From positions 1 through 35,160 of the IMG/VR virus record IMGVR_UViG_3300044632_001288: a DNA stretch of 35,160 bases, one strand, 5' to 3'. Each line of letters begins with the position of its first letter. Within the stretch, counting starts at the first letter, position 1. This stretch comes from a virus. The notes beneath the pieces were generated by a model. That model worked only from the letters and a program-made list of their open reading frames with translations, was not told where the DNA came from and ran no database searches. The position numbers and the translations under genes were made by a program. Below are positions 28,843 to 31,139 of this stretch, in pieces.

Positions 28843-29259
28843 ATGGCATACCGTACCAAATACATCCCAAAAAATAAGGAAAAGTATATTGGTGATGCTG
28901 CAAACATTACATGCCGTTCTTTATGGGAAAGAAATATTTGTAAATTTTGTGATGAAACTCCAAATATTGTAAAATGGTCTTCAGAAGAAATAGTAATACC
29001 TTATGAAAGCCCATTAGATAAAAAAATGCACAACTACTATCCAGATTTTTTAATACAGGTAAAAACTGGAGATTTGGTCAAAACTATGATGGTTGAAGTA
29101 AAACCAAAAAAACAAACTTATTTGAAGGAAAATGCTTCAAAGAAAGAAAAAATAACTTGGATAATTAACACAGCTAAATGGAAAGCTGCAGAAATTTATT
29201 GCAATAAACACAATATGGAATTTAAAATAGTAACAGAAAAAGAGATTTTCGCAAAATGA
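28843..29259 (+). CDS. gp4: Head completion nuclease gp4
   Basis: 138 aa (T4 gp4, also called gp50/65, is about 150). Acts in head completion and belongs to the TnsA-like/restriction-endonuclease fold. YRTKYIPKNKEKYIGDAANI, then CRSLWERNICKFCDE with Glu29, NYYPDF with Asp68 and MMVEVKPKKQT with Glu85-x-Lys87 give the E...D...ExK catalytic set. The C-terminus TAKWKAAEIYCNKHNMEFKI is conserved too. The gene ends with an ATGA overlap with the next gene, and its promoter leaves no room for a leader. Confidence 0.93.
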   Translation: MAYRTKYIPKNKEKYIGDAANITCRSLWERNICKFCDETPNIVKWSSEEIVIPYESPLDKKMHNYYPDFLIQVKTGDLVKTMMVEVKPKKQTYLKENASKKEKITWIINTAKWKAAEIYCNKHNMEFKIVTEKEIFAK

Positions 29260-29819
29260 CCAATTCTATCGTAAATATAAAAAATTACTTTGATAGACAC
29301 AAAGGACTTCAAAGAAACAACCGATACTCTTTATCCTTTGCTGGGTTGCCTACAACACTACCCCAGCTTCCCGAAGATGACATTCAGGCTTTTGCTGTAT
29401 CAATGGGTGCAAGAGCTATAGATTCGATTGCAGATAACTTGGCTGGTTATGGTTCAGGCCGTGCAGTTCCAAGATCGCAAAGATTTGTTCCCGGTGTTAT
29501 GTTAACATTTGCAATAACTAATGATAATTTTATTACAGACTTTTTTAATAACTGGTTTAACTTAATATACTCTGGCGGAAGAATAAAAGAATCATTGGAT
29601 TCACCATTCCAACTTTCATTTTATAATGATATTATATACAACTCACAATTAAAGGTAAAGCTGCTAGATCCAAATGGTAATGTTAATAGAGTTTATACTT
29701 TTTTTGAGATATATCCGCTAGAAGCTATACCAGTTGAATTAAATATGATAGAAACAAACAAGTACATGATTTATCAAGTATTATTAAATTACAGAGAATT
29801 TACATTTAAGGATTCATAA
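29256..29819 (+). CDS. Tail-tube-fold baseplate protein (gp54-like?)
   Basis: 187 aa. The start HKGLQRNNRYSLSFAGLP matches the QRNN(R/M)(Y/F)S.(.)F opening of gp54 and gp19-like tube proteins (T4 gp54: FQRNNMFSCVFA). AVPRSQRFVPGVMLTFAITN and DFFNNWFNLIYSGG (central) and LEAIPVELNMIETNKYMIYQ (C-terminal) fit a tube fold. T4 gp54 is longer (320 aa). It lies between gp4 and gp26, with 4-nt and 1-nt overlaps, in a tail-assembly operon. gp54-like tube initiator or a minor tube protein are the best options. Confidence 0.6.
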   Translation: MTNSIVNIKNYFDRHKGLQRNNRYSLSFAGLPTTLPQLPEDDIQAFAVSMGARAIDSIADNLAGYGSGRAVPRSQRFVPGVMLTFAITNDNFITDFFNNWFNLIYSGGRIKESLDSPFQLSFYNDIIYNSQLKVKLLDPNGNVNRVYTFFEIYPLEAIPVELNMIETNKYMIYQVLLNYREFTFKDS

Positions 29820-30484
29820 TGGACAATATAGTTGAATTTTTAAACGCTTCTATGCCAAAATACGAAACTGTTTTGCCTTTTTCTGGCAAAACTGTTTCTT
29901 TTTCTCCTTTTAAAGTAAAAGATGCAAAAAATATTGCAATTATTTTACAAGAAAACAATAAAAAACTTGCTCTCAAAGCAATGATTGACTTAATTAAGTC
30001 TTATTGTGAAGATTTTGATACTTCTGAGGCTTGTTTGGCCGATGCTGAATACTTATTTTTGCAAATAAGATCAAAAAGTGTTGATGAAGTTTTAAATTTG
30101 GTAAGAGATAATGAAAAAATACAAGTAAGTATATCAGAAATAAAGCCAAGAAATAAAATAAACACAGAATCTATCAATTTGGCATCTGGTATTGTACTTC
30201 ATCTAAAAACACCAACAGTAAAGGATCTTCTAAAACTCCAAACACTGGATAAAGAAGATCTAACAAAAGCATGCATAGAAAAAATTGCTATAAAAAATGA
30301 AGTATATAATGCAAATAAGTTTGTCCCAGAAGAAATAAAAAAAGTATTGGACAATCTACCACTATCGGTTATACCAAAACTAGATAAATTTTTAAAAGAC
30401 CAACCAGAACTATATTTAAAAATTCCCTTTGACTCGGGGGAAAAGGAGGTATCTGGTTTATTAAATTTTTTTATCTATCGGTAA
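29819..30484 (+). CDS. gp26: Baseplate hub/tail assembly chaperone gp26
   Basis: 221 aa (T4 gp26: 208), a member of the T4_baseplate-type family needed for hub assembly. It has an N-terminal MPKYETVLPFSGKTVSFSPF then KVKDAKNIAIILQENN (about 13-50), and the late block ASGIVLHLKTPTVKDLLKL (about 121-139), both typical. The gene is followed by a gp51-like frame shifted by -1. The last codons read L-N-F-F-I-Y-R-stop, and the two F codons are part of a T7 slippery run. A -1 frameshift there would extend the protein to about 286 aa. The start overlaps the previous stop by one base. Confidence 0.88.
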   Translation: MDNIVEFLNASMPKYETVLPFSGKTVSFSPFKVKDAKNIAIILQENNKKLALKAMIDLIKSYCEDFDTSEACLADAEYLFLQIRSKSVDEVLNLVRDNEKIQVSISEIKPRNKINTESINLASGIVLHLKTPTVKDLLKLQTLDKEDLTKACIEKIAIKNEVYNANKFVPEEIKKVLDNLPLSVIPKLDKFLKDQPELYLKIPFDSGEKEVSGLLNFFIYR

Positions 30485-30525
30485 AGTTTTTTGATTTGAG
30501 AAATTACTTTGTCACTAACTTTACC
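30466..30525 (+). promoter_or_regulatory. Programmed -1 ribosomal frameshift signal (slippery T TTT TTT plus stem-loop)
   Basis: 30466-30472 is seven T's read in the gp26 frame as aaT TTT TTT atc, an exact X XXY YYZ heptamer that can slip by -1 with full re-pairing. After a 7-nt spacer, GGTAAAGTT (30480-30488) pairs perfectly with AACTTTACC (30517-30525) over 9 bp around a 28-nt loop. The slip leads into the gp51 frame. The run of T's could also be an assembly error with one T missing. Confidence 0.75.
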
Positions 30526-30678
30526 TTGATAAACAATTTTGGATGGAGTCTTTTAGATATTGAAAACCAAATATACTGGGAACGGGATATTTATTTAAAA
30601 TTGGTTGCAGATTACGAAGAACAGAAAAAACAAAAACAAATGCAAAAAATGCATGGCTCGGAGTATTTTAACTTATGA
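30472..30678 (+). CDS. gp51: gp51-like tail/hub assembly domain, most likely made by -1 frameshift from gp26
   Basis: This frame is open from the TGA at 30430-30432 to the stop at 30676-30678. It contains no ATG except in its last codons, and only a TTG at 30496 without a Shine-Dalgarno. After the slip it would read YLSVKFFDLRNYF, then NNFGWSLLDIENQIYWERDI, then a charged coil (YEEQKKQKQMQKM). The (L/I)xDIE....(W)ER(D/E)IY pattern is that of short gp51-like and tail-chaperone C-terminal domains. T4 has 51 directly after 26. The fusion would be about 286 aa. Expression from the TTG as a separate 60-aa protein is the alternative. Confidence 0.7.
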   Translation, partial: YLSVKFFDLRNYFVTNFTLINNFGWSLLDIENQIYWERDIYLKLVADYEEQKKQKQMQKMHGSEYFNL

Positions 30679-31109
30679 ACGAAGAAAATAATAATTTTTC
30701 AATAGACATTCAGGCTGAAGTGAATTCGATGGGGAACACCCAAGAAGAGCTTACAGGCGAACCATCTACAATAGTAAATGTTCTTAAAGATATACCTTTG
30801 CCGGAAACATCTTTTTACACTGCTACGGACGTTGATACAGGTACTAGAGTTGCACCTCAAATAGCTATTATTGATAAAGACTTTAATATCAAGATGGATG
30901 CTGAAACAGCATATTCAAAAGCTGAAGAAACAGAAAAAAAATTAAAGGAAGTTAAAGATGGTATGTTGGATATGTATAATAATATGATGAATTCATGGTT
31001 GCCAAATAACAATAAAGATGAGTTTGAAGAAAGACCAACAACCGAGCCTCAAAATTTAATATTTGAAAATAGAAGAGATAGAATGAGTATGCCTCCAAAG
31101 TGGGCATAA
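30675..31109 (+). CDS. Small acidic protein of unknown function
   Basis: 144 aa, not recognised. The start ATG 30675 overlaps the gp51 stop as ATGA. The N-terminus is acidic (MNEENNNFSIDIQAEV), with a Pro/Thr-rich middle, a helical charged stretch AYSKAEETEKKLKEVKDGML (about residues 79-98) and an Arg-rich end (ENRRDRMSMPPKWA). No signal or membrane segment is seen. By position it is the last gene of the gp4-gp26-gp51 operon, and it ends at a bidirectional terminator. A tail-assembly role is inference from context. Confidence 0.6.
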   Translation: MNEENNNFSIDIQAEVNSMGNTQEELTGEPSTIVNVLKDIPLPETSFYTATDVDTGTRVAPQIAIIDKDFNIKMDAETAYSKAEETEKKLKEVKDGMLDMYNNMMNSWLPNNNKDEFEERPTTEPQNLIFENRRDRMSMPPKWA

Positions 31110-31113
31110 AATA

Positions 31114-31139
31114 AAAAAGGCCCCTTTCGGGGCCTTTTT
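31114..31139. terminator. Bidirectional rho-independent terminator
   Basis: AAAAAGGCCCC, a TTTC loop, then GGGGCCTTTTT: a perfect GC-rich stem flanked by A-tracts and T-tracts in both directions. It lies between the convergent plus-strand operon and gp32. The last T belongs to the gp32 stop codon. Confidence 0.93.

Follow-up and report, generated by a model that had tools for sequence, protein, structure and literature searches.

The window, by which we mean the whole stretch of DNA analysed, is a 35,160-nt fragment of an uncultured T4-like phage (IMGVR_UViG_3300044632_001288). It includes genes matching T4-type families for major head protein, scaffold, portal, terminase, prohead protease, neck and sheath-stabiliser. 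The region considered here comprises a tail tube-like gene, a gp26-like gene and a gp51-like reading frame (Table 1). The gp26-like protein belongs to the family PF12322, its score being 107.9 bits against a curated cut-off of 24.5. The gp51-like frame matches phrog_634, baseplate hub assembly catalyst (E 3.2e-13), and is kept in relatives. As the first-pass annotation had described, it lies in frame -1 relative to gp26, is open after the TGA at 30430-30432 and has ATG codons only near its 3' end.

The gene after gp51 (30675-31109) is about 141 to 236 aa long depending on the relative, and in every case it is followed by the ssDNA-binding protein gene, which is on the other strand. Matching against Pfam and PHROG gave no convincing family for it. 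Between these convergent hypothetical and ssDNA-binding protein genes there is a terminator-like, G+C-rich inverted repeat followed by Ts (31110-31139), and this repeat is the only near DNA match of the window to other phages.

Table 1. Features of the gp26-gp51 junction and its surroundings, with positions in the window.
Feature	Position	Strand	Evidence or remark
Tail tube-like gene	29256-29819	+	directly upstream of gp26; phrog_45 tail tube, E 2.1e-12
gp26-like gene, short form (TAC-N), 221 aa	29819-30484	+	PF12322 T4_baseplate, E 7.6e-31; phrog_150 baseplate hub, E 4.8e-31
Predicted frameshift product gp26-gp51 (TAC-NC), 286 aa	29819-30678	+	put together from its parts
-1 frame ORF; part after the slip is the gp51-like C-terminal extension (TAC-C)	30433-30678	+	stop 30676-30678
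Shine-Dalgarno-like AAGGAGGT within gp26, putative 5' stimulator	30443-30450	+	15-16 nt upstream of slip site
Slippery heptamer T TTT TTT, predicted -1 frameshift site	30466-30472	+	in phase; 48/48 clade junctions
Stem-loop, putative 3' stimulator	30480-30525	+	arms 30480-30488 and 30517-30525; perfect 9 bp
gp26 stop codon TAA, reached by non-shifting ribosomes	30482-30484	+	sequence

In the gp26 frame the site reads AAT TTT TTT ATC TAT CGG TAA, thus giving an in-phase X XXY YYZ pattern that lies three codons ahead of the gp26 stop, and the T run has exactly seven bases. The slippery heptamer, the 7-nt spacer (30473-30479) and the 9-bp stem reported earlier were all found in the sequence. A slip at this position would join 218 aa of gp26 to 68 aa of the -1 frame, with the junction NFF-YLS. 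Among the 11,067 codons of the window, 167 in-phase XXXYYYZ heptamers were counted, 26 of them of the T6N/A6N kind, and 2.3% of the 50-nt coding stretches of the window fold at least as well as the sequence downstream of the site. Since in-phase A/T-rich heptamers are common in the window, the evidence from this single sequence is moderate or suggestive, and the proof rests on conservation. Another candidate, AAATTTT at 30463, is also in phase but is not conserved in the relatives.

The relatives of the window were gathered by means of the neighbouring head-closure (gene 4-like) protein, which gave 78 IMG/VR loci with 48 distinct junctions. All 48 have T TTT TTT in phase and exactly seven Ts, and the run is kept down to locus L077, in which gp26 is 27% identical. 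A second, cyanophage-like clade has T TTT TTC at 77 of 77 distinct junctions, a count that leaves out one exception, locus L137. In the annotated isolates, representing seven or more host groups, T TTT TTN was in phase in 17 of 17 (P-SSM4, S-PRM1, DSL-LC03, DLP6, Mosig, Cr30, Ps15, P10VF, phiM12, OLIVR6, S-H34, nt-1, D527, S-CRM01, phiN3, S-MbCM25 and S-SSM4). T TTT TTC is present in the cyanophages and in the Pelagibacter, Stenotrophomonas, Agrobacterium and Vibrio phages, T TTT TTT in the Caulobacter and Sinorhizobium phages and T TTT TTG in Rhizobium phage P10VF; the final base is thus C, T or G while the slip pattern is constant. The gp51 frame is -1 at every junction compared.

Also the codon choice around the heptamer is restricted. 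The second Phe codon is TTC in 67 of 67 sequences of the cyanophage-like clade, compared with 25% of the Phe codons elsewhere in the gene, and every sequence of both clades has T as the last base of the codon preceding the Phe pair. The comparison of related junctions, proposed with the first-pass annotation as a check, found the run conserved in 100% of them and a gp51 start codon missing in many. On sequence grounds, this comparison across relatives is the decisive evidence for the slip site.

The Shine-Dalgarno-like AAGGAGGT had been missed in the first-pass annotation. Its codons occupy positions -7 and -6, and in the window clade AAG was used for 17 of 17 Lys (background 14%) and GAG for 28 of 29 Glu (background 11%). 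In the cyanophage-like clade GAG was used in 58 of 67 cases (background 30%) before Gly, producing GAGGN about 9-10 nt from the heptamer. The sequences in all these counts are related, so that the counts do not represent independent events. Judged from codon usage, the upstream SD-like codons are selected beyond the amino acids that they encode. The distance of 15-16 nt from the SD-like element to the heptamer in the window is longer than in the cyanophage-like clade, which is a point against the frameshift reading. Frameshifting to -1 in dnaX and in many insertion sequences is stimulated by SD-like elements (PMC5009743).

The stem of the window has a minimum free energy of -14.6 kcal/mol (z = -4.0). 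RNAalifold consensus folds found neither this stem nor that of the cyanophage-like clade (none in alignment A2, a different weak helix in alignment A1), and stem pairs were therefore counted directly. In the window clade, 93% of the cells of the main helix were paired in 30 relatives and four pairs had changed on both sides, which amounts to modest apparent covariation. The cyanophage-like clade has a different helix, formed by columns 13-22 with 34-43 of alignment A2, with 76% of the cells paired. Covariation is present in this helix as judged from the alignment: the pair 21-35 is UA in 27, GC in 11 and AU in 9 sequences, and column 21 corresponds to the third, synonymous position in an Ala codon. 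Sliding the partner reduced pairing in the helices of both clades.

The stem is weak in about a third of the window-clade sequences (L018, L020, L038, L045, L049, L068 and others). The question of its conservation, raised together with that of the heptamer, thus has a divided answer: it is present in the window's own subclade, some relatives with the heptamer have it only in weak form or not at all, and we therefore regard it as an accessory and not a universal part. Counted by presence, both kinds of putative stimulatory element were found, the SD-like one as a codon bias and the stem in the window and the greater part of its clade.

The alternative that survives best is that gp51 is a separate protein made by reinitiation, either from a -1 frame start served by the SD-like AAGGAGGT or by ribosomes terminating at the gp26 stop. 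Restarts can use a Shine-Dalgarno sequence just before the end of a gene (PMC5009743), gp51 is often annotated as its own gene, and part of the relatives have a suitable start: an ATG overlaps the gp26 stop at 8 of 48 junctions in the window clade, an ATG lies at +5 at 54 of 77 cyanophage-like junctions, and the Vibrio and Rhizobium phages have TAATG or TGATG at the junction. Against this, the window has no ATG or GTG in the gp51 frame before the TTG at 30496, itself not conserved, and many junctions lack a start codon. When the gp51 frame is followed to 40 nt beyond the gp26 stop, 38 of 48 window-clade junctions show no ATG and 23 of 48 none of ATG, GTG and TTG; the latter also holds for 19 of 77 junctions of the cyanophage-like clade, again up to +40. 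Reinitiation also leaves the invariant heptamer and the choice of TTC unexplained, and we consider it very unlikely as the general explanation, even though some lineages may make additional free gp51 in this way. Another start considered, the ATT at 30460 downstream of the SD-like element, is not conserved. In L018, L038, L043, L045, L049, L068 and L077 an ATG of the gp51 frame overlaps a TGA stop and the stem is weak; free gp51 might be made additionally in these.

Transcriptional slippage at the T run, adding a base to some of the mRNAs, would yield the same fusion with an identical peptide, and a homopolymer of seven Ts is a possible site for it. The bacterial runs with described slippage are, however, about 9 A or T long (PMC5009743), in most relatives outside the clade the run is of six Ts only, with C or G next, and the phase of the heptamer together with the SD-like element points to ribosomes; this explanation is even less probable than reinitiation. 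The least credible is a sequencing error or a decayed gene, with a true run of eight Ts and a single ORF: homopolymers are error-prone and L137 reads as one ORF, but exactly seven Ts in 48 distinct junctions from many assemblies, with T6C in 77, exclude a run of eight.

In L137 (1501-2394) and L194, gp26 and gp51 form one ORF in IMGVR_UViG_3300049043_000112, with a slip site two bases shorter than that of L145. Further genes within the same 20 kb of L137 are split between frames, so that indel errors are likely there and L137 is itself more likely to be the error. Because of these other frame breaks on the contig, its in-frame fusion was rejected as natural evidence. A second gp26 copy was looked for in connection with L137 and none was found, and the predicted model of the L137 fusion has low confidence in the tail.

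A -1 ribosomal slip at the T run, making a short and a long tail assembly chaperone with the help of probable stimulators, is thus very probably what the junction encodes. We infer the slipping and its rate: a fraction of the ribosomes on gp26 would slip back one base at the heptamer and continue in the -1 frame to 30678, so that one gene would give two proteins, a 221-aa short form and a minor 286-aa long form. The upstream SD-like element and the downstream stem-loop would probably raise the frequency of slipping. By analogy with lambda gpG/gpGT, the short and the long form probably work together as tail assembly chaperones, in which the shared part would hold the tape measure protein and the extension at the C-terminus would recruit a further tail or baseplate component. 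The G/GT-like analogy drawn at first was right in that the short and long proteins share their N-terminal part, as seen from the ORF structure and the matches to T4 gp26 and gp51.

The T4 proteins gp26 and gp51 have been listed as hub assembly chaperones (PMC3004832). An AlphaFold2 model of the window gp26 (pLDDT 88) has T4-like baseplate hub subunits as its nearest viral predicted structures, and one BFVD match, from Citrobacter phage Moon, is named tape measure chaperone (E 1.2e-5). A search of the PDB with the model gave no match at E <= 0.001, hence no solved chaperone structure. The tape measure gene is two genes downstream in the annotations of Cr30 and phiM12. It is not directly next in the window clade, which leaves the tape-measure part of the mechanism as one that we infer.

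The abstract of Vladimirov, Gautam and Davidson from 2022 reportedly states that frameshifting is conserved in several T4-like groups and that T4 uses genes 26 and 51. The PRFect paper (PMC10885494), in its passage on T4-like tail assembly chaperones, cites that work (Virology 2022, doi 10.1016/j.virol.2021.11.003) and notes that some T4-like phages instead have a short gene together with a longer fusion gene. The Adele phage paper (PMC12846349) cites it, at the place concerned, for poly-T slippery sequences in T4-like TAC-N genes. Whether such a frameshift had been described for T4-like phages was left undecided in the first-pass annotation; according to these citing papers, the principle was published in 2022. 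A literature search for an experimental test of the frameshift in T4-like phages found none in the collection searched. Among T4-like phages that do not belong to the T4 group the frameshift arrangement is widespread, and the window is a well-supported example of it; new here are the uncultured clade and the stimulatory elements, the coverage of the 2022 paper being known from the papers that cite it.

Sullivan et al. (2010; PMC3037559) reported that gp51 in cyanophages and vibriophages lacks approximately the first 200 residues of T4 gp51, and did not mention a frameshift. The frameshift explains these "missing" residues, because they correspond to the gp26 part. Marine T4-like phages are very abundant, and their gp51 is still either annotated as a gene of its own, a "baseplate hub assembly catalyst", or left unannotated. 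In phage records such as MH629685, KF156339, NC_020875 and OR003938 the gp51-like region is unannotated or a separate gene, and a joined CDS would be possible. The present record quantifies the selection on the slip site and its neighbours in an added, uncultured clade.

A conserved frameshift in the tail genes of dsDNA phages is said to have been described by Xu, Hendrix and Duda in 2004. The junction of the window resembles lambda gpG/gpGT in having a predicted -1 slip shortly before the first chaperone gene ends, a minor long form and ORFs that follow the tail tube gene. It differs in that sequence or solved-structure similarity was not detectable, the slip site is a poly-T run and the tape measure gene is not directly next in this clade. 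With E. coli dnaX it shares the 5' SD-like element, the heptamer and the 3' stem-loop (PMC5009743); the dnaX heptamer is A AAA AAG and the shift leads to a shorter product, whereas in the window phage it would lead to a longer one. The T4-like chaperones of Vladimirov et al. (2022), as cited in PMC10885494 and PMC12846349, likewise comprise this gene pair, with a short and a long form and poly-T slip sites.

As to T4 itself, the window gp26 belongs to the same Pfam and PHROG family as its T4 namesake, and the window gp51 matches phrog_634 as T4 gp51 does. Genes 26 and 51 had correctly been called separate in T4; that they are divergently transcribed and that gp51 contains a gp26-like part had been missed. 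T4 gp26 and gp51 are distantly similar to each other and both match PF12322 and phrog_150, while only gp51 also matches phrog_634 (aa 147-246). T4 gp51 is thus, by its family matches, a full-length gp26-like protein with a gp51-like tail. This relation is drawn from the Pfam and PHROG matches; profile A3 against the single T4 gp51 was weak, and alignment A4, in which gp26 and gp51 rows were mixed, was misaligned and left out. At the end of T4 gp26 the Phe-Phe pair is coded TTC TTT, and no in-phase heptamer was found at the gp26 end of T4, Aeromonas phage 31, Acinetobacter phage 3014, Klebsiella phage Roth67 or a Krischvirus. All five carry a full-length gp51, as do altogether over 1,300 phage records.

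The difference from the window is thus that T4 has two divergent separate genes, a gp51 that is the full-length long form and a gp26 without the heptamer. With gp26 and a full-length gp51 both present, T-even phages obtain the short and the long form from two genes, and phages with the cassette and phages with two genes form a clean natural comparison. A somewhat favoured scenario is that the SD-like element, T TTT TTN and a lineage-specific stem constitute an ancestral T4-like chaperone cassette, kept by selection while gp26 diverged to about 25% identity and the stems were rebuilt independently, and that the T-evens later switched to two divergent genes and lost the heptamer.
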